A stretch of DNA of 64,000 nt, from NCBI RefSeq assembly GCF_003351045.1, contig NZ_QQZY01000001.1:496001-560000 (forward strand), written 5' to 3'. Shown in pieces: positions 2,891-64,000 of the stretch. Source of the DNA: Gaiella occulta (GTDB lineage Bacteria; Actinomycetota; Thermoleophilia; Gaiellales; Gaiellaceae). The first letter of the stretch is position 1. Every line of letters starts with the position of its first letter. The notes under the pieces were generated by a model. That model searched no databases. It saw only the letters and a program-made list of their open reading frames with translations, and was not told the DNA's origin. A program made the translations under genes and the position numbers.

Positions 2891-4048
2891 ATGCGCGACC
2901 TCCTCGAGTACCGCTCTGCGTTCCCGATCCTGGAGCACACGACCTACCTGATCAACCACTCGCTTGCGGCGATGCCCGGCAAGGCGGAGGAGCGCCTCGC
3001 CGAGTACGCGCGCATGTGGAAGGAGCGCGGCATCCGGGCGTGGGGCGAGGGCTGGTGGACGATGCCCATGACGGTCGGAGACCAGATCGGGCGCATCATC
3101 GGCGCCGCTCCCGGCTCGACCGTGATGCACCAGAACGTCGCGATCGCCGAGGCGATCGTGCTCTCCTGCTTCTTTCCGATCGACCCGGCCCGCAACCGCG
3201 TCGTCTACGAGCGGGCCAACTTCCCGTCGGTGCGCTACCTCTACCAGGCGCAGCCGGACATCGAGGTCGTCGTCTGCCAGGACGACGCGGCGATCGTCGA
3301 CGCGATCGACGAGCGCACGCTGCTCGTCCCCATCAGCCATGTGCTGTTCAAGACCGGCGAGATCCAGGACGTGGAGCCGATCATCCGGCGCGCTCACGAG
3401 GTGGGGGCGCACGTGATCCTCGACAGCTACCAGTCGGCCGGCATCATCCCCTTCGACGTCACCGCGCTGAACGTCGATTTCGCGGTCGGCGGCTCGGTGA
3501 AGTGGCTGTGCGGCGGGCCCGGGAACGGCTGGCTCTACGTGCGCCCCGACCTTGCCGAGCGGCTGGAGCCCACCTTCACCGGCTGGCAGGCGCACGAGCG
3601 CCCGTTCGGGTTCGAGGAGGAGATGGACTATGCCCCGGGGGCGGCGCGCTTCCTCACCGGCACGCCCAACGTGCCCGCGCTGTACGCGGCCACCGCCGGG
3701 TACGACCTCATCGAGGAGGTCGGCGTCGACCGCATCAGGGAGAACTCGCTGCGACAGACGCAACTGCTGATCGACCTCGCCGACGCGTCGGGCTTCGAGG
3801 TGCGAAGCCCACGCGAGCCGTCGCGGCGCGGCGGCACCGTCACGGTGCACGTGCCGGAGTTTCCCGCCGTCCACAAAGAGCTCGCGGAGCGGCAGATCCT
3901 CTGCGACTTCCGGCCGGACGCGGGCATCCGCCTCGGACCCCATTTCTTCAGCAGCGACGACGAGCTGCGCTTCACGATCGAGCAGATCGGGGACATCGTC
4001 GCAAGCGGCGCCTACGAGCGCCACCTGGGGGCCGTCGCCCGCCACTGA
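2891..4048 (+). CDS. Kynureninase-like class V aminotransferase-fold PLP enzyme
   Basis: This 385-residue fold-type I PLP enzyme carries the PLP-contacting Asp178 in LDSYQSAG and the Schiff-base Lys204 in GGSVKWLCGGPGNGW. That motif is much closer to kynureninase (KynU) than to cysteine desulfurase or serine-glyoxylate aminotransferases. KynU cleaves kynurenine to anthranilate, but no other tryptophan-degradation gene is near, so another beta-carbon-cleaving or aminotransferase activity is possible. The ATG at 2891 follows a -10-like TAAGCT by seven bases. It is divergent from the alcohol dehydrogenase; a joint role is only a guess. Length matches the family. Confidence 0.8.
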   Translation: MRDLLEYRSAFPILEHTTYLINHSLAAMPGKAEERLAEYARMWKERGIRAWGEGWWTMPMTVGDQIGRIIGAAPGSTVMHQNVAIAEAIVLSCFFPIDPARNRVVYERANFPSVRYLYQAQPDIEVVVCQDDAAIVDAIDERTLLVPISHVLFKTGEIQDVEPIIRRAHEVGAHVILDSYQSAGIIPFDVTALNVDFAVGGSVKWLCGGPGNGWLYVRPDLAERLEPTFTGWQAHERPFGFEEEMDYAPGAARFLTGTPNVPALYAATAGYDLIEEVGVDRIRENSLRQTQLLIDLADASGFEVRSPREPSRRGGTVTVHVPEFPAVHKELAERQILCDFRPDAGIRLGPHFFSSDDELRFTIEQIGDIVASGAYERHLGAVARH

Positions 4049-4180
4049 GCGCGGCTTCCTGCCGTCGCCCTACCGCGCCGTCCGCCTCGCTCTCGGATCC
4101 CCCGTCCTAGCGATCGCCGGATGCCGTCGTCGTTCGTAGGGTACGACGGACGTCCCACCAACGCGGCGGAGGAGAACAGC

Positions 4181-4462
4181 ATGAGACGAATCAGCAGGGC
4201 CAAGCTCACGGTCGTCGCGTTCGGGTTCGCCGGCGCCGCCCTCACGGTGGCCGCCCAGGCGTCCGACGGTGCCAAGGTGCGCCTCTGTCACGGGACGGCC
4301 TCGGCGAGCAACCCGTACGTGCTCATCGACGTGAGCGAGAGCGCTCTCGCAGGCCACTTCGACGGAACGGCACCCGGGCACGGCCGGAAGAACAACCCCG
4401 ACTTCGTGCTCGCGGCCGACAGAGCCGACTGCTCGGGCGGTCCGGGCGGCGGCGGGTTCTGA
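4181..4462 (+). CDS. Small secreted protein with CHGT...NPYVLI repeat motif
   Basis: This 93-residue protein begins MRRISRAKL followed by a hydrophobic run and AAQA/SDG, a standard Sec signal peptide with cleavage near residue 28. The mature part has CHGTASASNPYVLIDVSES, a motif common in secreted actinobacterial and environmental proteins of unknown function, then a second Cys (DCSGG) and a Gly-rich tail. The two cysteines could form a disulfide. The start is chosen at ATG 4181 because GGAGGAG lies just upstream; an earlier in-frame ATG at 4121 would bury the signal peptide. Function unknown. Confidence 0.7.
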   Translation: MRRISRAKLTVVAFGFAGAALTVAAQASDGAKVRLCHGTASASNPYVLIDVSESALAGHFDGTAPGHGRKNNPDFVLAADRADCSGGPGGGGF

Positions 4463-4667
4463 GGATCTATCGGCATCGCGCCACGGGACGCCCTGCGCCG
4501 TCGTCGAGCGCCGAGCCGGCACCCTCCCGCTCCTGACCCGCCCGCCCGCCTGATCTCGAACAGGCAGGCGGCCGTCATGTCCCTGCCGCCGTCGGTGAGG
4601 CGATGGTGGTCCCGGAGACGGCCGACGTCGTGCCGGCAGGAGCTCGCGAGGGCGTTCGCCGCGAAAC

Positions 4668-4683
4668 GGCGGACATGTCCGCC
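4668..4683. promoter_or_regulatory. Perfect 16-base palindrome upstream of the MFS gene
   Basis: GGCGGACATGTCCGCC is its own reverse complement and ends 64 bases before the MFS start. A second short inverted repeat (CGCCG-cgaaa-CGGCG) overlaps its left side. The position suits a repressor operator for the exporter, but no regulator gene is adjacent and GC-rich palindromes also arise by chance. Confidence 0.35.
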
Positions 4684-4747
4684 TTCACGGTTGCGCAGGC
4701 GGTAGTCGCCCGCGCCGCCGTACCCTTCCCCGGGTGGCGGGCCGCAG

Positions 4748-5935
4748 ATGACACCTGTGTCGAGGGCGCTCGCCGGATTCATGCTCGGCGCGGCAGGGAT
4801 GTTCGCGACGATGTACTCGACGCAGGCGATCCTGCCCGAGCTGTCGCGCGACTTCGGCGTGAGCCCGTCGCGGGCCGGGCTGTCGGTCTCCGTTGTCGTC
4901 GGCGCGGTCGCCCTCGGCGGCTGGGTGTGGGGGCCGGTCTCCGACCGGATCGGCCGCACGCGCACGATCCGGCTCGCAAGCCTGCTGCTCGTGCCGCCGA
5001 CGATCGGGGTTGCGCTCGCACCCGGGTTCGACGCGCTGCTCGCGTTCCGCGCGCTCCAGGGGCTCTGCATGCCGGGGCTGCTCGCGGTGGGAGCCCCGTA
5101 CGTCGTCGAGGCCTTCGTACCGCGAATCGGCTCCCGGGCGATGGGGTACTACGTGTCCGCGCTCGTCGCGGGCGGGCTGCTCGGGCGTCTGGGCGTGGCA
5201 CTCGCCGGCTCGCTCGTCGGCTGGCGGGCGGCGATCGGCTTCCTCGTCGTCCTCCCGCTCGCCGCGGCGGCGGCGATGCGTGGCTCGCTGCCCGAGCCGC
5301 CGCCGCCCGCGCGCGGCCACGGCGCGCTCCGCCACCTGCTCAACGGCCGCCTGCTCGCCGTCGCCGTTGCAGGCGGGTCGCTGTTCTTCGCGTTCGTCGG
5401 CACCTTCACCTATGTCGTCTACCGGCTCGAGCAGCCGCCCTTCTCGTACTCGGCGGCGGCGGCGAGCCTCGTCTTCGTGCTCTGGCTGCTGGGGCTGACG
5501 GGCCCGCTGGCCGGCCGGGCCGCGGACAGGGTCGGCTGGCGCCGGCTCACCGCGCTCGCGCTGGCGGCGTCCGCCATGGGGCTGCTGCTGACGCTCTCCG
5601 ACCGGCTGCCGCTCGTCGTTCCCGGGCTCGCGCTCGTGGCGGCGGCGATGTTCGCCGGCTACACGGCGACCCAGCTCGGCGTCGGCGACGCCGCCCTCGC
5701 CGACCGCGGCTCCGCGAGCGCGCTCTACTTCAGCACCTACTACGGCGCCGGCGCCCTCGGTGCATACCTCCCCGGCGTTGCGTGGGAGAGATGGGGTTGG
5801 ACGGGGGTCGCGTCCGTCGGCCTGGGATCACTGGCGCTCGCAGCGGCGGCGCTCGCCGCAGCCGGCGAGCGCCGCCCCCACATCAGTGCACGATCAGGAC
5901 GTCGCAGTGCGCATGTCGTGCGACGGCGCCGCTGA
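4748..5935 (+). CDS. MFS transporter, probably a drug/metabolite exporter
   Basis: This 395-residue membrane protein has about twelve hydrophobic segments. The first begins at residue 8, and it carries the MFS loop 2-3 motif A as [13 protein letters not shown] (about 63-75). The opening ([18 protein letters not shown]) resembles YnfM/arabinose-efflux-type exporters of the DHA1 family. A weak GGGTGG precedes the ATG. The 3' end overlaps the convergent stress-protein gene by 53 bases, so the Arg-rich C-terminal tail is coded opposite that gene's end. Substrate unknown; the 16-base palindrome upstream may control it. Confidence 0.82.
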
Positions 5936-6296
5936 CGCTCAGGCCGAGCAGGCGCTGCACGATTCCCGGCTCGCGCGTGCCGACGACGATCAGATCGGCG
6001 CCGCGCCCCTCCGCGAGCTCGACGATCGTGTCCGCAGGCTCCCCGAGCGCCGACACGAAGTCGGCGTCGAGCCCGTGCCCCTCGAGGATCTTGCGGGCCT
6101 GGGCGAGCTCCTCCGCGTGCAGCTCGGGAGAGTCGACCGGGTCGATGGGACCCATGCCGCGGCCGACCGGCGCCGCGAGCGGCGCCACGCTCGTGACGAT
6201 CACCTTCGATCCGAACGCCTGCGCGATCGCGGCGGCGCGCTCGAGCGCGCGCTTGGCCGGCTCGGTGTCGTCGTACCCGACAACGATGGTCTTCAT
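5883..6296 (-). CDS. Universal stress protein (UspA family)
   Basis: This 137-residue single-domain Usp begins [21 protein letters not shown], with the conserved Asp of the first strand-loop. It ends with the ATP-binding loop [19 protein letters not shown] and CDVLIVH. Usp proteins bind ATP or act as dimeric sensors during starvation and stress. The start is supported by AAGGAGG a few bases upstream. It is a close paralogue of the gene at 12815-13195, so the pair brackets the glutamine-synthetase/glx block. The convergent MFS gene overlaps its 3' end. Confidence 0.9.
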
Positions 6297-6416
6297 GCCT
6301 GCCTCCTTCTCTCGGGTGTCGACCGTAGTACAGCGCGTGCCGGCGCGACGCGCAACGGGGGAAAACCGCGGTCCGGCACGGGTTCCCCACGGGTCGCGCG
6401 CGAGCTCGGAGCGGCC

Positions 6417-6422
6417 TACGAT
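6417..6422 (+). promoter_or_regulatory. -10 element of a leaderless promoter
   Basis: TACGAT followed by exactly six bases and then GTG 6429. No ribosome-binding site fits, so transcription probably begins at the GTG. The same TAnnnT-N6-start arrangement occurs at 17533, 30041 and 53475 (minus strand), which raises confidence in each. Confidence 0.6.
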
Positions 6423-6428
6423 GCACCC

Positions 6429-8099
6429 GTGAAGCGCGCCGCAGCCGACATGGACACGGTGCTCACGCGCATCATCTCGACGGTCGCTTCCAGCATCGAG
6501 CTCGACGAGGTGCTGCGCGCGGTCGTGCGGCTGCTCTCCGACGCGAGCGCCGTGCACGCGTGCTTCGTCTACCTCCTCGACGACGGCGGCGAGCAACTCG
6601 TGCTGCGGGCCGCGGGAGAGCCGTACGAGCATCTGATCGGGCGCATCGTGCTGGAGCGCGGCAAGGGTCTCGCCTGGTGGGCGGCCCAGCACAACGAGCC
6701 GGCGTTCATCCCCGACAACCTGCTCGACGACCCTCGCGTCGAATACGTTCCCGAGCTCGAGGAGGAGCGGTTCCAGTCGCTCCTCAGCGTTCCCATCGCC
6801 GCACGCGACGGCACCGTGATCGGCGTCATCAGCGCCCACACCGAGGCGCCGCGCGAGTTCACGCAGGGCGAGGTCGAGTTCCTCGTCACGAGCGCGTCGC
6901 TCGTCGCAGGAGCGATCGAGAACGCGCGGCTGTACGAGGAGATGCGCACGCGCGTCCGTGAGCTGGAGGCGATCGCGGATCTCGCCGAGGCGATCGCCGG
7001 CGCACGGTCGCTCGACGAGCTCGTGCCCGAGGTCGCCTCCCGCGCCGTCGACCTGCTGGCGGCATCCGCCTGCCACGTGTACCTGCTCGAGCCCGGGGGC
7101 GAGGATCTGACGCTCCACGCCTCCGCGCCCGCGCGGGCGCCCGCGCGGGCGACGCTCAGACTGGCCGAGCTCGGCTCGGAGCTCGCGCGCGGCGGCCGGG
7201 CGTCGCAGGTCGCGGTCCCTCTCGTCGCCGGCGACGAGCTGCTCGGCCTGCTCGTCGCCGAGGCCAGCGCCGCCGCCGATCTCGCGCGTGCGGTCGCGAG
7301 CCAGACGGCGGTCGGGATCAAGAAGATCCAGCTCATCGAGCGCCTGACGGAGAAGAACCTGATCAAGGACTTCTTCGAGGATCTCGCCGCCGGAAGGGTG
7401 GGCGCAGACGTCGAGGGCCGCGCGGCCCGGCTCGGCTGCGACTTCGACCTGCCCTACATCGTGCTCGCCGCCGATCCCGCCGACGAGGCCCTCGAGCCCG
7501 CCCTGGCGGCCCTTCTGCCGGGCTCGCTGTTCGACCGGCGCGGCACGACCCTCCGCGGGCTCCTGCGTGTCCCGGCCGCAGGGCCGGAGCGGGTCGCCGC
7601 GAGCGTCCGGCGCGTGCACGCCGCCCAGACGGCTCCCGTGGCGATCGGGCTGTCGAGCCCGTGCACGGGCATCGGCACGTTCCGCGAGGGGTTCGAGGAG
7701 GCGCGCCAGGCGCTGCTCGGCAGCACCGTGCTCAAGCGCGAGGCGTCCGTGCTCGGCTTCGACGACCTCGGCGCCTACAAGTACATCCTCCGGATCGCGC
7801 TCGAGGGCGGCATCCGCGACGCGACGATCGAGGCGGTCTCCCGGCTCGCGGACTACGACCGGCAGCGAAGCGCCTCGCTGCTGCGGACGCTCGAGGAGTT
7901 CCTGCACCGGCGCGGCAACATCAGCGCCACCTCGGAAGCGCTCTACGTCCATCCGAACACGCTGCGACAGCGCCTGCGCCGGATCGGCGAGCTCTCGGGC
8001 ATCGACCTGCGCCGCGACGACTGGCTGATGGTCGAGATCGCCGTCAAGCTCGTACGGCTGCAGCTCGCGCTGGGTGCTTCCGACACACCTCCCTCGTAG
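6429..8099 (+). CDS. GAF-domain PucR/CdaR-type transcriptional regulator
   Basis: This regulator of about 556 residues has a first GAF sensor domain (about 20-170), a linker helix, a second GAF-like domain (about 180-305) and a middle region. The C-terminal PucR helix-turn-helix includes [19 protein letters not shown] (about 500-520). PucR/CdaR proteins control purine, sugar-acid or amino-acid catabolism in response to a small ligand. The gene lies 75 bases upstream of the glutamine-synthetase/glx operon on the same strand, so local control of nitrogen assimilation is likely but unproven. GTG 6429 is preferred over ATG 6450 because of the leaderless -10 six bases upstream. An internal APARAPARA repeat comes from GC-rich DNA. 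Confidence 0.85.
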
Positions 8100-8174: not shown

Positions 8175-9539
8175 ATGGCAAGCGACGCGGCCCGGCTCGA
8201 GCAGATCCGCTCGACGATCGCGGACAGGGAGATCGAGTTCATCTTCGCGCAGTTCGTGGACATGTACGGCCGGCCGAGCGCCAAGCTCGTGCCGGCGGCG
8301 CAGCTCGACTCCCTCGTCGAGGACGGCGCCGGCTTCGCCGGCTTCGCTGCCGGCGAGATCGGGCAGTTGCCGAGCGACCCGGACATCGCCGCGATCCCCG
8401 ACCTCGACAGCTTCACGCCCGTCCCCTGGCAGCCGAACCTCGCGCGCTTCGCCTGCGACGTGACCGTCGAGGGCGAGGCCTGGCCGTACTGCCCGCGCAC
8501 GGTTCTCCGCAACGTGCTCGCGCAGGCCGCGGAGCAGGGCTACGAGTTCAAGATCGGGATCGAGCTCGAGTACTTCCTCGTGCAGCTCAACGCGGACGGC
8601 ACGATCGAGATCGCCGACAAGCGCGACACGCTCGAGAAGCCCTGCTACGACATGGCCGGCCTCACCCGCCAGTACGAGTTCCTCACGCGCGTGTCGAGGT
8701 ACTGCAACGAGCTCGGCTGGGGCAACTACGCGAACGACCACGAGGACGCGAATGGCCAGTTCGAGCAGAACTTCGAGTACGCCGACGCCCTCGTCACCTG
8801 CGACCGCGCGATCTTCTTCCGCTACATGGTGCACACGCTCGCCGAGCAGCACGGCGTCGTGGCGACGTTCATGCCGAAGCCGTTCACGACTCTCACCGGC
8901 AACGGCGCCCACTTCCACATGTCGCTGTGGAAGGACGGCGTCAACGTCTTCCTCGACGAGGGCGACTCGCGCGGGCTCGGCCTGTCGGAGTGCGCCTACA
9001 ACTTCATCGGCGGGCTCAAGGCGCACGCGCGCGCCTACAGCGCGCTGACGGCGCCGACGGTGAACTCGTACAAGCGGCTGAAGCTCGGCTCGACCGCGAG
9101 CGGTGCCACCTGGTCGCCCGTGTGGATCTCGTACGGCTACAACAACCGCACGCAGATGCTGCGCATCCCCGCGCCCGGGCGCATCGAGGACCGCACCGTC
9201 GACGGATCGTGCAACCCGTACCTGGCGGCGGCAGCGGTGCTCGCATCCGGCCTCGACGGCATCGCCAACAAGCTCGACGCGGGCGAGCCCAACGCGGAGA
9301 ACCTCTACAGCTTCCCGTACGAGGAGCTCGTCGGCCGCGGCCTGCGCTCGCTCCCTGCGACGCTGCACGAGGCGGTGGAGGAGCTCGAGCGGGACGACGT
9401 CCTGCGCGCGGCGCTCGGCCGCACGCGCGAGAACGAGGAGTACGTCGACTACTACCTCCGCGTCAAGCGCGACGAATGGTTCCGCTACCACGAGCAGGTG
9501 ACCCCCTGGGAGATCCGGGAGTACCTCACCCGCTTCTGA
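8175..9539 (+). CDS. Type III glutamine synthetase-family ligase (GlnT / gamma-glutamylmethylamide synthetase-like)
   Basis: This 454-residue ATP-dependent ligase joins glutamate to ammonia or methylamine. The GS beta-grasp region (about 1-110) is followed by the catalytic domain with [10 protein letters not shown] (metal-binding Glu), [10 protein letters not shown] (metal His and substrate loop), [14 protein letters not shown] (ATP/glutamate arginines) and [12 protein letters not shown]. Length and motifs fit GlnT/GMAS rather than the GlnA types of central nitrogen assimilation. A strong GAGGAGGAGG lies four bases before the ATG. The three genes that follow are glxB, glxC and glxD, the same neighbourhood seen in methylamine-users, where GMAS and N-methylglutamate synthase act together. 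Plain glutamine synthesis remains possible. Confidence 0.85.
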
Positions 9540-9661: not shown

Positions 9662-10567
9662 ATGTGCGGGATCGTCGGACTGTTCGCCAAATCGCCTGAG
9701 CTCGAGCAGCGTCTCGGCGTGCACCTCGCGGCGATGCTCGCGCAGATGTCCAACCGCGGCCCGGACAGCGCGGGCGTCGCCGTCTACCACGACCCGGCGC
9801 CACCCGGCTCGAGCAAGCTGACCCTCTACTCGGCCGATCCCGCACAGCAGTGGGGAGATCTCTGCGCCGAGCTCGCCGGCACCTTCGGCGCCGCGCACGA
9901 GAAGAGCGTGCGCGCCAGCCATGCCGTCGTCCTCGTCGACGCCGACGCCGGGGAGGCCGAGTCCTGGGTGCGGAGTCACCATCCCGAGCTTCGGGTCATG
10001 AGCGCCGGCACCGTGATCGAGATCTACAAGGAGGTGGGGCGACCCGAGGTCTTCGCCGAGCAGTTCCGCCTCACGGATCTGCAGGGCACGCACGCTCTCG
10101 GCCACACCCGTATGGCGACGGAGAGCCGCGTGACGACGGAGGGCTCGCATCCGTTCTCGACCGGCCTCGACCTCTGCCTCGTCCACAACGGCTCCCTCTC
10201 GAACCACAACACCCTGCGGCGCAAGCTGCAGCGCGAGGGCATCGAGTTCCAGACCGAGAACGACACCGAGGTCGCGGCCGGCTACCTCGCATGGCGGCTG
10301 CGCGAGGGCGCGTCGCTGGAGCAGGCGCTCGAGGGCTGCCTCGACGATCTCGACGGCTTCTACACGTTCGCGGTCGGGACTGCCGACGGATTCGCCGTGC
10401 TGCGCGACCCGATCGCGTGCAAGCCGGCCGTCCTCGCGGAGACCGACGACTGGGTCGCGATGGCGTCCGAGTACCACGCGATCGCCGTGCTGCCCGGCGC
10501 CGACGAGGCCCGCATGTGGGAGCCGGAGCCCGGCGTCGTGTACGTGTGGGAGAAGGCGGTCGTCTGA
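9662..10567 (+). CDS. glxB: Class II glutamine amidotransferase (GlxB / N-methylglutamate synthase subunit A-like)
   Basis: This 301-residue Ntn-type glutaminase has the catalytic Cys exposed at position 2 after Met removal (MCGIVGLF). It also has the NRGPDSAG substrate loop, GHTRMATES, the HPFS segment and LVHNGSLSN. These match GlxB and the amidotransferase domain of glutamate synthase. It would release ammonia from glutamine, or transfer methylamine from gamma-glutamylmethylamide, into the GlxD reaction chamber. An AAGGAG precedes the ATG. Its stop overlaps glxC by one base (TGATG). Being a separate subunit rather than part of one large GltB chain is typical of glx/mgs sets. Confidence 0.9.
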
Positions 10568-12814: not shown

Positions 12815-13195
12815 CTAGTGGACGATCAGGACGTCACAGCGGGCCCTGCGCTGCACGTTCTCGCTCACGGAGTGGCCGAGAAGCCGCTCGACCATGCTCG
12901 GCTCGCGCGTGCCGACGACGATCAGATCCGCCCCATTCGCCTCGGCGACCTCGACGATCGCCTCCGCCGGGTCGCCGACCGCCTCCACGAGCTCTGCCTC
13001 GACGCCCATCTTCTCGAGGAGGGAGCCCGCGTTCCGCAGGTCGGAGCCGTCGTCGCGACTCTCGCCGCCGATCAGCACGGGAACGACGCTCGTCACCACG
13101 AGTCGCGCACCGTAGCGGCGTGCCATCTCACCAGCACGCTCGATCGCACGGTCGGAGGGGTCGGACTCGTTGTAGCCGACGACGATCGTCTTCAT
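12815..13195 (-). CDS. Universal stress protein (UspA family), second copy
   Basis: This 126-residue Usp domain ([21 protein letters not shown] to CDVLIVH) has the ATP loop VVGTREPSMVERLLGHSVSE. The start at 13195 has AAGGAGA upstream; a longer version starting ten codons earlier (MTPKGDLMK) is less likely because it would include that site. The first and last strands are nearly identical to the gene at 5883-6296, so these are recent-looking paralogues in the same orientation. It lies tail-to-tail with the glx operon. Confidence 0.9.
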   Translation of the reverse strand: MKTIVVGYNESDPSDRAIERAGEMARRYGARLVVTSVVPVLIGGESRDDGSDLRNAGSLLEKMGVEAELVEAVGDPAEAIVEVAEANGADLIVVGTREPSMVERLLGHSVSENVQRRARCDVLIVH

Positions 13196-13282: not shown

Positions 13283-13570
13283 CTACTGACTCTGTGCGAG
13301 CGGCACGTCGTGGTCGCTGTCGCCCAGGCCGAGCGACCGGCGGAGCTCGGAGCCCCAGTTCGGGTGCCGCCCGATGCAGGTCGGGCAGACGCGCAGCGCG
13401 GCACCCTGGAGCCCGGGATGGTCGATCACGGCGCCGGGTGGGAGCACGAGTCGCCCCCACGCAGCGCCCGAAAGCAGGCCGTCGGCCTGCTTTCGGTTGC
13501 AGAGAGCGCAGTGAAGGTAGAGCCGGGCCAATGACTCGTGCTCAACCCCAAGGGCCGATGAAGGGGCCAC
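13283..13570 (-). CDS. Small CxxC...CxxC protein, unknown function
   Basis: Up to 95 residues contain HCALCNRKQ and, about 40 residues later, RVCPTCIGRHP. The two CxxC pairs probably hold one zinc. The GTG at 13570 would overlap the upstream 50-residue gene by 29 bases; a TTG at 13531 gives an 82-residue form that keeps both pairs and avoids the overlap. It is the last of four minus-strand genes starting with the Amt transporter, so it may be co-transcribed with it. No family recognised. The paired cysteines at sensible spacing argue for a real gene. Confidence 0.55.
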   Translation of the reverse strand: MAPSSALGVEHESLARLYLHCALCNRKQADGLLSGAAWGRLVLPPGAVIDHPGLQGAALRVCPTCIGRHPNWGSELRRSLGLGDSDHDVPLAQSQ

Positions 13571-13694
13571 CGCGGTCGGTCAACAGGATCGCGACGACGA
13601 CGACGACGCACAGGAGCGAGAGGCCGATCATGAACGGCGCGACCCGGCTGTCCTCCTTCTGCTGCGGGGGGAAGTCGATCTGCTTGCCTGCCAA
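13542..13694 (-). CDS. Small single-span membrane protein (50 residues)
   Basis: An open frame beginning with TTG 13694 encodes a short polar head (AGKQIDFPPQQKEDSRVAP), one membrane span (MIGLSLLCVVVVVAILL) and a short tail ending in GPWG. AGGAGG sits eight bases before the TTG, an excellent ribosome-binding site that decides the start. It lies 16 bases after the 78-residue membrane-protein gene and belongs to the same minus-strand unit as the ammonium transporter. Possibly an accessory peptide of the transporter or of a respiratory enzyme; no homologue recognised. Confidence 0.6.
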   Translation of the reverse strand: MAGKQIDFPPQQKEDSRVAPFMIGLSLLCVVVVVAILLTDRGGPFIGPWG

Positions 13695-13710
13695 CGGATG
13701 ATCCTCCTCT

Positions 13711-13947
13711 CTACGCCGCGCTCGGCGGGGTGGGCTCGACTGGGCCGAGAGCGCCCGAAGCGCGAAGCGCGGCGGCCTGATGCTCGAGCTTGCCGTTCTC
13801 CATGGTCACGAATCCGATCACGGCTGCGACCATGAGGATGATTCCGAGCACGGTGAGGATGTAGGTGCCGGTCGAGTTGGCGCCGCCCCAGGTCCAGAAC
13901 TCGGCGATGTCCTCGCTCCACTTGTCGTAGGGGAAGCTGTTGAACAT
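13711..13947 (-). CDS. Small membrane protein downstream of Amt (78 residues)
   Basis: This 78-residue protein starts MFNSFPYDKWSEDIAEFWTWGG. It has one clear hydrophobic span (YILTVLGIILMVAAVIGFVTM, about 29-49) and a soluble tail rich in Ala and Pro. TAAGGAGG, which also contains the stop of the transporter gene, lies just upstream of the ATG, so it is translated from the same message nine bases after Amt. The aromatic N-terminus looks amphipathic and could lie at the membrane surface. A partner or regulator of the transporter is the simplest inference. Confidence 0.75.
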   Translation of the reverse strand: MFNSFPYDKWSEDIAEFWTWGGANSTGTYILTVLGIILMVAAVIGFVTMENGKLEHQAAALRASGALGPVEPTPPSAA

Positions 13948-13956
13948 CGGGCCTCC

Positions 13957-15414
13957 TTATGCTCCGACCTTGACGGTCTGTTTGCGCGTAGCCGAGTGGT
14001 AGGCGTCGAGCAGGATCGGCGCTGCCTCGACCTCGTCGCCGTCGGGCGTCACGATCACCTCCGGCACGCGCTCGAACTCCGGGTAGAAGTCCTGCTGGAA
14101 CTCGGCCAGGTCGAGGCCCTCGAGCTCGACCTCCGGCGGCACGCGCAGCAGGTTCAGCTTCTTCAGCACCCAGCTGAGGACGTACCCGGGCAGGAAGGCG
14201 AGCGGCAGGAAGGCCATCATCCCCATCAGCTGGCCGCCGAACGAGACGGGGATGTTGTTGATCCCCGTGGGGTATCCGCCCGCGAAGATGCCGACGAGGA
14301 AGACGCCGTAGAAGCCGCAAAACCCGTGCACGGCGACCGCGCCGACGGCATCGTCGAGCCGGAGCTTCTTCTCGATCCAGGTGCCGACCCACACCGCCAG
14401 CATGCCACCGGAGGCCGCGAGGAGGTAGGCGAGCGACGGATGATAGACGTCGGCGCCGGCGGAGACGGCGATCACGCCCGCAAGGCCGCCCGACAGCGTC
14501 CAGAACGGATCGCCCTTGCTCGCGAACCAGGCGCCGGTGAACCCTCCGGCGAACCCGATCGTGATCACCATTGCGATCGCCCCGAGCGTCGTCGGCGAGA
14601 GATAGATGTTGAGCCAGCCCGGGAAGACGGTGGACTGGATCACGAGACACGCTGCGTAGAAGCCGTAGAAGCCCGTGAAGATCAACATCAGCCCGAGCAG
14701 CGTCATGTGCGTGTTGTGCGGTCTGAAGCTCCTTGCTCTACCCGCGACGTCGTACTTGCCGATCCGTGGGCCGAGGTTGAGCAGGACACCGAGCGTGAAG
14801 GCGCCGGCCACGCCGTGCACGACGAGAGACGCGATCGCGTCGTGGAAGCCGAAGCGCGTCACGAGCCAGCCGCCGGAGCTCCATCCCCACGCCGCGTCCA
14901 TGATCCACACGAACGACCCGAGCACGATCGTCAGCATCAGATAGGCGGAGAGGCGGACACGCTCGATGAGCGCTCCCGACATGATCGAGCCGGTTGTCCA
15001 CGAGAAGAGGAGGAAGGCGAGGAAGAAGACGAGGCTGACGTGATCCTGGAGATTCGGCCCCAGGCCTGCGCTCCACGGCGCGGTCAGGCCGCAGAATCCC
15101 GGCAGAGCGTCCGGGCTTGCGTGCCCGCTCTTCGGCCAGCCTTCCTGGAAGCAGCCGTACACGTACCAGCCGAAGTAGTAGAACGTCGGTGTGACCACGG
15201 CGATCGTGAGGATGTTCTTCATCGCCGTCGACATGACGTTCTTGCGCCGTGCGATGCCTGCCTCGTATGCCATGAAGCCGGCGTGGATCAGCCACATGAC
15301 AACGACCGTGAAGAAGTAGAACTGCTCGGTCAGGATCTGCGAGTCGAGCTTGATCTGCCTTTCGAGATCCTGAATTGTCGTCTCCGCGAGCAACGACATC
15401 AGCGACGAACCCAT
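13957..15414 (-). CDS. amt: Amt-family ammonium (or methylammonium) transporter
   Basis: This 485-residue protein has about eleven membrane spans. The pore twin histidines are visible in ASLVVHGVAGAF and AVAVHGFCGFYG. The span with AGFMAYEAGIARRKNV is the Amt signature region, and the aspartate-containing helix is WGWSSGGWLV...FHDAIASL. The extramembrane C-tail (ELEGLDLAEFQQDFYPEF) resembles the regulatory tail of many Amt proteins. The insert CFQEGWPKSGHASPDALPGFCG (two Cys) in the loop after the third span is unusual and may form an external disulfide. GGAGG precedes the ATG. The nearby GS/glx genes suggest uptake of ammonium or methylammonium. Confidence 0.88.
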   Translation of the reverse strand: MGSSLMSLLAETTIQDLERQIKLDSQILTEQFYFFTVVVMWLIHAGFMAYEAGIARRKNVMSTAMKNILTIAVVTPTFYYFGWYVYGCFQEGWPKSGHASPDALPGFCGLTAPWSAGLGPNLQDHVSLVFFLAFLLFSWTTGSIMSGALIERVRLSAYLMLTIVLGSFVWIMDAAWGWSSGGWLVTRFGFHDAIASLVVHGVAGAFTLGVLLNLGPRIGKYDVAGRARSFRPHNTHMTLLGLMLIFTGFYGFYAACLVIQSTVFPGWLNIYLSPTTLGAIAMVITIGFAGGFTGAWFASKGDPFWTLSGGLAGVIAVSAGADVYHPSLAYLLAASGGMLAVWVGTWIEKKLRLDDAVGAVAVHGFCGFYGVFLVGIFAGGYPTGINNIPVSFGGQLMGMMAFLPLAFLPGYVLSWVLKKLNLLRVPPEVELEGLDLAEFQQDFYPEFERVPEVIVTPDGDEVEAAPILLDAYHSATRKQTVKVGA

Positions 15415-15541: not shown

Positions 15542-15889
15542 CTACGGCTCGAGCACCGCGCCGGTTCGCCCGTCGACCCGCACGACGCGGTACCGGGTCG
15601 GATTGCCGTCCGCGTCGACGTCGTAGAGCGAGACTGCCCACACCGCGCGCGGAGGGATACCCTGCTGGACGAGGCGGATCTGCATCCGATCCGGGGTGAA
15701 CGAGACCGCGGCCCGGGCGATCTTCTCGGCCTGTTGCTGCGAGACGGTGCGATCGGACGACGCGCAACCTCGTGCGACGAGGAGCGCGGCGAGCAGTACG
15801 ATGCCGACCGCAGCGAGCCGGAACGCCCAGCTGTCGCGGAGATCGCGCCGGGCGCTATCCACGCGCCTGGCGTCTGCGGACGACGACAT
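15542..15889 (-). CDS. Membrane-anchored PepSY-like small protein
   Basis: This protein of about 115 residues has a basic head, one membrane span (FRLAAVGIVLLAALLVARGCA, about 24-44) and an extracytoplasmic domain. That domain has QQAEKIARAAVSF and ends YRVVRVDGRTGAVLEP, the shape of a single PepSY-like repeat. The start is ATG 15889; GTG 15895 is an alternative. It overlaps the end of the upstream membrane-protein gene by about 35 bases, indicating coupling. It lies between the FAD oxidoreductase and Amt on the same strand. Function unknown. Confidence 0.6.
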   Translation of the reverse strand: MSSSADARRVDSARRDLRDSWAFRLAAVGIVLLAALLVARGCASSDRTVSQQQAEKIARAAVSFTPDRMQIRLVQQGIPPRAVWAVSLYDVDADGNPTRYRVVRVDGRTGAVLEP

Positions 15890-16067
15890 AGCCACGCAAG
15901 AGCAGATAGCCGACGAAATGTGTCATGAGCACGAGCAGGAGCCACCAGAACCACCACACGTAATGCGGCCGTAGCTCGCGCAGCTCGATCACCGTGAGAT
16001 AGAGCGCGACGGCGAGCGTGAGCACGAGCACCCACGGTGCGTAGCCGAGCAACAGGAAGACGAGCAC
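15855..16067 (-). CDS. Small two-span membrane protein
   Basis: This 70-residue, very hydrophobic protein has two spans (FLLLGYAPWVLVLTLAVAL and WWFWWLLLVLMTHFVGYLLL) joined by a short charged loop, ending in an Arg-rich tail (VVVRRRQARG). The GTG at 16067 has GAGG about eight bases before it. It overlaps the following PepSY-like gene by 35 bases. The aromatic cluster WWFWW resembles small respiratory or transporter accessory subunits, but no family is recognised. Confidence 0.6.
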   Translation of the reverse strand: MLVFLLLGYAPWVLVLTLAVALYLTVIELRELRPHYVWWFWWLLLVLMTHFVGYLLLRGYVVVRRRQARG

Positions 16068-16176: not shown

Positions 16177-17490
16177 TCAGCTCCAGGGATAAGGCGAGTT
16201 CGAGACGGGGTGCAGGTCGCCCGTCGCGAAGCGCTCGAAGCGGAACGGGTACAGCAGGCTCGAGTGCTCGCCCTGCAGTACCTTCGCCACCTCGCGCCCG
16301 ACGCCGATCATCTTGTAGCCGTGGTTCGAGTCGAGGATCGCGTAGACGTTCGGCTTCAGGTAGTCGAACACCGGGAAGTTGTCGGCGCTGAACGAGCCGA
16401 CGCCGCCCGAGCGCGCCTGCTTGTAGAGCGGCCGGCAGCCCTCGAAGCGCGCCATCGCGTGGGAGAGCGCGGCGCACCACATGTCGGGGAAGCCCGGGTC
16501 GACGTCCGTGGTGGAGGGGTACGGGTCGAGCTGCACGTCGCCGTCGACCGTGAGCGGCGAGGCGCCGCCCTGCACGCCGTGGCGGTCGCGCTTGAAGTAG
16601 ATGCCCCAGAGCTCGTCGGTGACCAGCTTCCCGTCGTCGCCGGTCAGGGGCGCGTCGGTGTCGAGGTGGATCACGGGCGGGGCGCCGCCGTCGGCCGTCG
16701 CGAACATGAGCGGGTCGACCGTGATCTCGCCCTCCTGCAGGTTCCAGTACGTCCACATGCGCACGTCGTGCCGCACGTCGCCCGCGGGCGTGCGCACGTC
16801 GATCGTGTCGGGCAGCCCGAGCATGCGCCAGAAGTGCTGGGCCCACGGGCCGGGCGCGATCACGAGCTGCTCGCCGATCGCGATGCGGCCGTGGTCGGTC
16901 TCGACCGCGGTGGCGACGTCGCCGGCGCCGAGCTCGATCCCCGTCACCTCGACGCCGGAGAGCACGGACACGCCCGCGCCGGTGCACTTGTCGACGAGCC
17001 CCTGCACCGACTCCTGGTTGAACGCGAAGCCACCCTGGTGCTCGTGCAGGCAGACGGTGACGCCGCGGGCGCGCCAGTCGGGGAACAGCTTCCGCATGTG
17101 CGCCGTGACCGCGCTCTCGCCCACGATCAGCTCCGAGCGGTAGCCGATGCGCTCCTGGCGCTCGAACACGGCGACGAGGTCGCTCTCCTGCGCCTTCGGC
17201 CCGAGCGCGATGTAGCCGACCGGGTTGTAGTGGTAGGCGGCCGCGTCCGACTCCCACACCTCGACGCAGGCCTGCATGAGCTCGCTCATCGCCGGCTGGA
17301 AGTAGTTGTTGCGCACGACGCCGCAGGCGATGCCGGACGCGCCGGCGCCCGGGCGGGCCTTGTCGAGCACTACGATGTCCGCGCCCGACCCGGCACCGCG
17401 CGCCTCGAGCTCCCCGGCGAGGTGGTAGGCGGTCGAGAGACCGTGGATGCCGGCGCCGACGACGACATACTGAGACGAAACGGGGATCAT
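16177..17490 (-). CDS. FAD-dependent amine oxidoreductase (sarcosine oxidase beta/DadA-like)
   Basis: This 437-residue DAO-family flavoprotein has an N-terminal dinucleotide fold (VVVGAGIHGLSTAYHL, about 8-23), an acidic residue for the ribose (VVLDKARPG), GASGIACGVVRNNYF and a C-terminal AILDSNHGYKMIGVG that closes the FAD site. The family oxidises N-methyl or secondary amines such as sarcosine or N-methylglutamate and makes an imine. GGGAGG precedes the ATG at 17490. It is a paralogue of the protein at 61500-62768; both lie close to glutamate-synthase-like FMN proteins. It is divergent from an IclR regulator. No partner subunits of a heterotetrameric oxidase are adjacent. Confidence 0.85.
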   Translation of the reverse strand: MIPVSSQYVVVGAGIHGLSTAYHLAGELEARGAGSGADIVVLDKARPGAGASGIACGVVRNNYFQPAMSELMQACVEVWESDAAAYHYNPVGYIALGPKAQESDLVAVFERQERIGYRSELIVGESAVTAHMRKLFPDWRARGVTVCLHEHQGGFAFNQESVQGLVDKCTGAGVSVLSGVEVTGIELGAGDVATAVETDHGRIAIGEQLVIAPGPWAQHFWRMLGLPDTIDVRTPAGDVRHDVRMWTYWNLQEGEITVDPLMFATADGGAPPVIHLDTDAPLTGDDGKLVTDELWGIYFKRDRHGVQGGASPLTVDGDVQLDPYPSTTDVDPGFPDMWCAALSHAMARFEGCRPLYKQARSGGVGSFSADNFPVFDYLKPNVYAILDSNHGYKMIGVGREVAKVLQGEHSSLLYPFRFERFATGDLHPVSNSPYPWS

Positions 17491-63351: not shown

Positions 63352-64000
63352 CGCTCATCACCTCCGCGTGTGCCGGCAGGTAGTCGACGGGATACTCGAG
63401 GTGCTTCTCGAGCAGGCGCTCGATCTTGGCGAGCGTCTTCTCCTCGCTGACGCCGGGGATCCAGCTCGTGCCGGCGAGCGGCACCTTCGCCATCGCGGCC
63501 GCCTCGACCGTGAGAGCGCACAGGTCCTCGGGCTCCAGCGAGTGGATGTTCGTCTTGCCGCAGGCGCGGGCGAGCATCTGCACCTCGAGCGTCAGCGTGT
63601 GCAGGAAGTTGTAGACCCGCTCCGCCGCGTCCTCGACCCGCAGGCGCTTGCGCAGCTCGGGGTCCTGCGTCGCCACCCCGACCGGGCAGCGGCCCGTGTG
63701 GCAGTGGTAGCAGTGGCCGGCGGGGACGCCGATCGTGCCCTCGTAGTCGGTGACCCCCGGGATCTCCTTGTTGCAGTTGAGCGCCATCAGCGCCGAGTGG
63801 CCGATAGCGACCGCCTTCGCGCCGAGCGCGAGCGCCTTGGCAACGTCGCCGCCGTTGCGGATGCCGCCCGCGACGACGAGGTCGATCTCGTCCGCGAGCC
63901 CGACGTCCTCGAGCGCGCGCCGCGCCTCGGGGATCGCCGCCATCAGCGGGATGCCCGTCTCCTCCGTGGCGACGTGCGGGCCCGCGCCCGTGCCGCCCTC
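63344..64000 (-). CDS. FMN glutamate synthase-like protein, C-terminal part (runs off the window)
   Basis: The frame is open from the right edge (EGGTGAGPHVATEETGIP) to a stop at 63344, about 218 residues seen. It has the FMN/phosphate site VAGGIRNGGDVAKALALGA, the [3Fe-4S] cysteines GHCYHCHTGRCPVGVATQ, and the C-terminal EVQMLARACGKTNIHSLEPEDL. It is homologous to GlxD at 11280-12689 but keeps the cluster ligands. The beginning lies outside the window, so partner subunits cannot be seen. It is coupled to the unrecognised gene downstream. Confidence 0.85.
   Translation of the reverse strand, partial: EGGTGAGPHVATEETGIPLMAAIPEARRALEDVGLADEIDLVVAGGIRNGGDVAKALALGAKAVAIGHSALMALNCNKEIPGVTDYEGTIGVPAGHCYHCHTGRCPVGVATQDPELRKRLRVEDAAERVYNFLHTLTLEVQMLARACGKTNIHSLEPEDLCALTVEAAAMAKVPLAGTSWIPGVSEEKTLAKIERLLEKHLEYPVDYLPAHAEVMSGE

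Follow-up and report, generated by a model that had tools for sequence, protein, structure and literature searches.

The Amt-family channel gene of the window, the whole 64,000-nucleotide stretch of Gaiella occulta DNA analysed here, is followed on the same strand by three tiny genes, T1, T2 and T3, that are real and under purifying selection. T1 is the core partner of this Amt group; T2 is a feature of its main actinobacterial clade, and the only family in which T3 turned up is that of the window. We regard the Amt as probably, though well short of certainly, a methylammonium permease with dedicated tiny membrane subunits. A functional link of T1 to this Amt is very likely, methylated amines are the likely substrate, and the balance leans towards T1 being a true subunit.

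The three genes behind amt

The initial annotation described a 78-residue membrane protein, a 50-residue single-span protein with a TTG start and a good ribosome-binding site, and a CxxC/CxxC protein behind the transporter gene. The ORFs and their re-read coordinates agree with this for T1 and T2, which are preceded by aaggagg and gaggagg, respectively. The third gene is also real, with a different start: an alignment of 13 homologues displaces the proposed start at 13570 in favour of the TTG at 13531, which lacks a strong ribosome-binding site. With this start, amt, T1, T2 and T3 lie strictly head to tail. The locus comprises the following features.

8175..9539, plus strand: type III glutamate-ammonia ligase family (TIGR03105 above cut-off), candidate gamma-glutamylmethylamide synthetase
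9662..10567, plus strand: MgsA-like class II glutamine amidotransferase (PF13522), gene order as in related locus L083
10567..11280, plus strand: MgsB/GlxC-like protein, 237 aa from MVADAAL, order as glxC in L083
11280..12689, plus strand: MgsC-like FMN glutamate-synthase-domain protein, sub-cut-off matches only, order as in L083
12815..13195, minus strand: universal stress protein (PF00582), likely start at the ATG at 13195
13283..13531, minus strand: T3, TTG start, 82 aa, CxxC...CPxC, without a span, 10 nt behind T2
13542..13694, minus strand: T2, TTG start, 50 aa, one span, 16 nt behind T1
13711..13947, minus strand: T1, ATG start, 78 aa, one predicted span, 9 nt behind amt
13957..15414, minus strand: amt, Amt-family channel, 485 aa, PF00909
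15542..15895, minus strand: PepSY-like protein with an N-terminal hydrophobic stretch, upstream of amt (PF03413 at 23.5 bits, cut-off 24)
15855..16067, minus strand: T0, very hydrophobic, 70 aa, with homologues in related loci
16177..17490, minus strand: FAD-dependent DAO-family oxidoreductase, candidate N-methylglutamate or methylated-amine dehydrogenase

Same-order homologues, low omega and a canonical-Amt control place T1 to T3 beyond chance and rule out chance ORFs or overlapping reading frames. The median NG86 omega is 0.40 for T1, 0.26 for T2 and 0.31 for T3 (36 pairs each). The idea that T1 is a C-terminal piece of amt split off by a frameshift was rejected, as T1 has its own start and ribosome-binding site; no T1-Amt fusion was found among the Amt proteins inspected. 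Neither the window proteins nor the scanned homologues of T1, T2 and T3 matched a Pfam or NCBIfam family above cut-off.

For the control, a mechanical test looked for an ORF of 40-130 aa with a hydrophobic stretch, starting -20 to 300 nt behind amt. Such an ORF follows amt in 44 of 45 loci of this Amt group, or 36 of 37 once eight duplicate loci are dropped, as in the counts of unique loci. In the single miss, L068, the contig ends within the T1 frame; the T1 profile gives this locus 57 bits. Among canonical Amt loci of the class the ORF was found in 1 of 30, and a P-II gene lies behind amt in 14 of the 30. Canonical plasmid-borne Amts gave two such ORFs in seven loci, both unannotated in a gene table known to be incomplete. 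Loci with less than 300 nt downstream (L031, L034 and L076) were left out.

T1 is predicted to have an acidic and aromatic N-terminal segment outside, one span and a basic C-terminus inside. Lysine and arginine are more frequent after the span in 19/19 proteins, which predicts an N-out/C-in orientation. T2, with a GPFIGPWG tail, has more of them before the span in 15/16 and is predicted to lie the opposite way, N-in/C-out. The AlphaFold monomer of T1 (mean pLDDT 81) places a short helix at residues 7-18, on the outer side, and a long one across the membrane at 26-63. Profiles of T1 and T2 returned nothing from PDB sequences. The four cysteines of T3 are invariant in 13/13 homologues, and its predicted model is of moderate confidence (pLDDT 75). 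The searches placed T3 in no known zinc-ribbon family: a PDB profile search was empty, and Foldseek found no PDB match at E<=0.001, its best rows being mostly poorly fitting ribosomal proteins.

Conservation of the tiny genes beside amt

The initial annotation had suggested that the small genes serve as accessory peptides of an ammonium or methylammonium channel. The search it proposed, for small genes beside amt in relatives, found them within the phylum and outside it, and this conservation supports the suggestion, which the neighbouring genes narrow to methylated amines; that they bind or regulate the channel would be a further step. Genome contigs scanned with the Amt as query yielded 21 loci, drawn from Thermoleophilia, Acidimicrobiia and other Actinomycetota. 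In 20 of these the ORFs behind amt could be read, and the remaining locus ends inside amt. Together with further genome regions and the window, these make up 40 unique loci of this Amt group in actinobacteria, of which 32 belong to the main clade. Where a main-clade locus extends 700 nt or more downstream (29 unique loci), T1 is present in 29, T2 in 29 and T3 in 15, and nine have T1a, a further one-span ORF of about 40 aa between amt and T1. Of the 15 T3 carriers, 14 make up the whole branch of the Amt tree that includes the window; the other, L079, is too short for the tree. The universal stress protein gene then comes after T3 in several related loci. PepSY-like and T0 homologues occur in 29/32 and 28/32 unique main-clade loci, respectively, when the fetched stretch is read on either strand, and their position varies.

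T1-type ORFs also follow all seven readable deeper actinobacterial Amts (L055, L056, L057 and L072-L075; 48-53% identity); the eighth such locus, L076, is cut and stands outside this count. In L075 the amt copy is split into two frames (3836-5057, minus strand).

Whole-genome searches gave the same picture. The Amt was found in 33/399 class genomes (E<=1e-60) and 6/396 phylum genomes (E<=1e-80). Among 149 class genomes, the T1 protein matched in nine at E<1e-4 and the T2 profile in 11 at E<1e-10, each beside an Amt of this group; two weaker T1 and two weaker T2 matches lie in long unrelated frames. All three matches of the T1 profile at E<1e-10 in 396 phylum genomes lie beside this Amt. Weak T1 matches (1e-4 to 0.01) away from this Amt, in 16 phylum and two class genomes, look like chance. 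Three genomes (G053, G394 and G437) carry the Amt and are missed by the T1 profile, and a T1-type ORF was seen in them on reading. T3 matched at E<1e-10 in seven genomes, all of the window's family, and one genome has a second T3-like copy away from the amt contig (G051:C86:7235-7411).

Outside the phylum, tblastn of plasmids found Amt relatives at 43-47% identity in Rhodobacterales and on one Pseudomonas plasmid. The Ruegeria Amt as query reached further proteins at 32-33% identity in Methylobacterium sp. DM1 and Aminobacter niigataensis DMFA1. Ten Pseudomonadota loci were fetched, of which one, on a Parasedimentitalea plasmid (L128), has amt in pieces; it was left uncounted and is the only amt seen without a detected T1. 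In the nine intact copies, an annotated hypothetical gene of 58-71 codons begins -4 to 53 nt behind amt in all nine, and eight pass the hydropathy test (Ponticoccus L087 fails, at 1.3). Thioclava plasmid matches H2, H3, H5 and H8 lie outside this sample. L119 and L120, from Methylobacterium sp. DM1 and Aminobacter niigataensis DMFA1, respectively, are Amt-like proteins annotated as hypothetical on conjugative plasmids, with a tiny one-span gene directly behind.

The T1 proteins split into subtypes, and the subtype of Ruegeria and Ponticoccus L087 also occurs behind the actinobacterial Amts that group with theirs. In the Amt tree this grouping, with the actinobacterial B Amts, is found at 99/100; the tree used 10 of the 28 canonical controls, and its long branches were flagged by the tool. 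The T1s of Ruegeria and Ponticoccus reached 45.4 and 38.1 bits with a profile of T1 subtype B, where the best of 3300 block-shuffled decoys had 34.2. With profile T, the outgroup A members stayed at 12.6-27.9, below the best decoy (29.7), and an hhalign comparison of main-clade and Pseudomonadota T1s was weak (probability 9%, E 0.0036). The most remote T1s are tied to the window's T1 solely through intermediates, and those of L119 and L120 solely through position and shape.

The Amt pore and the methylamine genes

The window Amt matches PF00909 at E 3.1e-61 over profile positions 4-397 of 399. It falls below the cut-offs of TIGR00836 (219.7 against 343.3), the AmtB equivalog PRK10666 (85.6 against 657) and marine_trans_1 (184 against 514). 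We aligned 43 Amts of the group, 36 actinobacterial and seven from plasmids, with E. coli AmtB; Amts shorter than 330 aa were left out of this pore table and of the tree, and L119 and L120 stand outside both. D160, W148, F107, H168, F215 and H318 are kept in 43/43. The outer vestibule differs, with F103A, Q104F and S219C in 43/43 (E. coli mature numbering). Among the canonical controls, position 103 is F or Y in 28/28 and position 219 is S in 27/28. The window Amt carries N216Y in addition, and the L119 and L120 Amts have other replacements (F103R, F107A/T, S219T/V).

According to the part of the review PMC10433425 available to us, the S1 site consists of S219, W148 and F107, and an S219A change in AmtB enhances uptake of methylammonium and ammonium. 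The AmtB-type S1 site is incomplete in this group, as W and F are kept and position 219 is C in 43/43. The initial annotation had also called a CF...FC loop of the transporter unusual, and the loop is real: both cysteines occur in 29/30 main-clade Amts (the remaining row is a gap) and are absent from the deeper relatives and from the 28 controls. An outer-side disulfide between them is plausible from the sequence. A third, very divergent Amt-like protein lies at G000:C3:248987-250240 (PF00909 at 112 bits in G000 and 90 in G003).

Genes of GmaS-type and of MgsA-, MgsB- and MgsC-like proteins adjoin the amt cluster on the other strand. The ligase family is assigned above cut-off, and the Mgs genes are named from their domains and from an order shared with annotated relatives; no pathway-specific model for N-methylglutamate pathway genes matched at the window locus. 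A second MgsC-type protein begins near the end of the window (63452-64000; G000:C1:559452-560741, minus strand), with 52% identity to the first. MgsC-type matches occur in 24/149 class genomes, including 11/11 T2 carriers (Fisher p 1.8e-10) and, assuming that the list of Amt carriers covers the 149-genome sample, 13/13 Amt carriers. Eleven of the remaining 136 class genomes have them as well, so the pathway can do without this transporter.

Among the 22 unique loci that extend 3.5 kb or more to both sides, GlnA3/Mgs-type genes were found in 13, DAO genes in 11 and at least one of the two in 18. Of the remaining four, L072 and L075 carry genes for DmmA-like proteins and haem-dependent N-demethylases, and the stretches fetched for L058 and L029 are free of all these methylamine genes. 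In L018 the third, very divergent Amt-like protein (L018:4351-5712) lies directly upstream of the DAO gene and about 2.3 kb upstream of the group's amt. Among the Pseudomonadota, annotated dimethylamine monooxygenase (dmm) genes lie beside L081, L083 and L087, and glnT with Mgs-type genes beside L083, L085 and L087. Aminomethyltransferase-type genes are near L084 and L086, and a dimethylformamidase gene is near L120; no methylamine-type gene is annotated near Thioclava L082 or Methylobacterium L119. The parts of PMC5520151 and PMC7574528 available to us draw amt in roseobacter methylamine clusters with dmm, gmaS and mgs, a genomic setting like that of the window amt. The cluster legends in those parts do not name a small partner gene, and PMC7574528 mentions two putative transporter subunits, without names.

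A GAF/PucR-type regulator is encoded at window 5760-8099 (plus strand). In lineages f7, f9 and f10 (L063-L071) a homologue is transcribed divergently from its neighbour amt, so this protein may be the methylamine regulator.

Possible roles of T1, T2 and T3

In the reading we prefer, Amt would form the pore and T1 its constant partner, probably packed against it as a stoichiometric subunit. In the main actinobacterial clade T2 would join as a second subunit. T3 would be a family-specific addition, perhaps with the regulatory role that GlnK plays for canonical AmtB. Once inside, methylammonium would pass to GmaS and MgsABC of the same cluster. KdpF and CydX are small single-span subunits of other membrane complexes, and like them T1 and T2 are single-span proteins of fewer than 80 aa encoded beside a large membrane partner. 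Here the partner is an Amt-family channel, and the likeness drawn is one of size and gene setting. The fixed adjacency could also reflect operon function without binding.

T1 and T2 might instead be regulators that, in the role of GlnK, bind Amt transiently and shut or open it at high methylamine or ammonium. We consider this possible yet doubtful. The comparison with E. coli AmtB-GlnK bears on it from both sides. The two share the Amt fold by sequence, the pore His, D160, W148, F107 and F215, and an amt gene with a small partner gene; they differ in F103A, Q104F, S219C and a changed tail, and the partner here is single-span, not a soluble P-II. The genome's only P-II match adjoins its canonical amt, leaving the window amt without a P-II neighbour. 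The window Amt tail reads GLDLAEFQQDFYPEF where E. coli AmtB has GLDVNSHGENAY, and the HGE stretch, which matters for GlnK in E. coli AmtB, is not kept. Both points favour regulators, although the first also counts for the preferred reading. Regulators are favoured as well by Methanosarcina sP36, which in the part of PMC10714827 available to us is a small protein acting on, and inhibiting, an Amt. The same source gives sP36 no transmembrane helix and proposes that it mediates binding of GlnK1 to AmtB1, whereas T1 and T2 each have one span. T1 also sits directly behind amt in 29/29 main-clade loci and in the deeper relatives, and the one amt lacking a detected T1 is the broken plasmid copy L128; this constancy fits a subunit better than a transient regulator. 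In a literature search with most subscription journals outside its reach, sP36 was the published small partner of Amt that emerged, and nothing was found on T1 to T3.

The preferred reading of T1 as a subunit can be taken further. A hetero-oligomeric Amt branch spanning Actinomycetota and Pseudomonadota would have partly lost the outer ammonium site (F103A, S219C), and the acidic, aromatic outer helix of T1 would cap the vestibule, complete a site for methylated ammonium and set the choice of substrate. We offer this as a speculation that is unlikely to hold in full.

It is improbable, in our estimate, that Amt is an ordinary ammonium channel recovering ammonia from methylamine breakdown, with the tiny genes serving another membrane step. 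The PF00909 match and the conserved pore would suit such a channel, and the PepSY-like and T0 genes are also nearby. Against it, T1 keeps its place behind amt where the DAO gene lies nearer or farther or is missing from the stretch fetched, the vestibule substitutions are uniform in the 43 aligned Amts, and the same genome has a canonical Amt with P-II. That Amt is a sensor rather than a carrier, with T1 to T3 carrying the signal out, is very unlikely: its best PDB sequence matches are 6eu6 and 8qj3, which we take to be sensor-type Amts, and Kuenenia Amt5 is given as binding only in the available part of PMC10433425, but the twin His, the Phe gate and D160 are intact and the genes that recur next to it encode catabolic enzymes and, in some lineages, a PucR-type regulator.

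Methylated amines make up an important pool of nitrogen. The literature searched contained no settled account of their uptake by bacteria and no paper that brought together the methylamine pathway, Amt and either Thermoleophilia or Actinobacteria. Published descriptions present Amt channels as homotrimers acting alone or with GlnK. The constant tiny gene behind this Amt suggests that channels thought to be solitary have a tiny partner. A constant microprotein partner together with uniform vestibule changes offers a testable handle on methylated-amine uptake and on the partners of Amt channels, and points to a possible function for small hypothetical genes in roseobacters, methylotrophs and soil actinobacteria.
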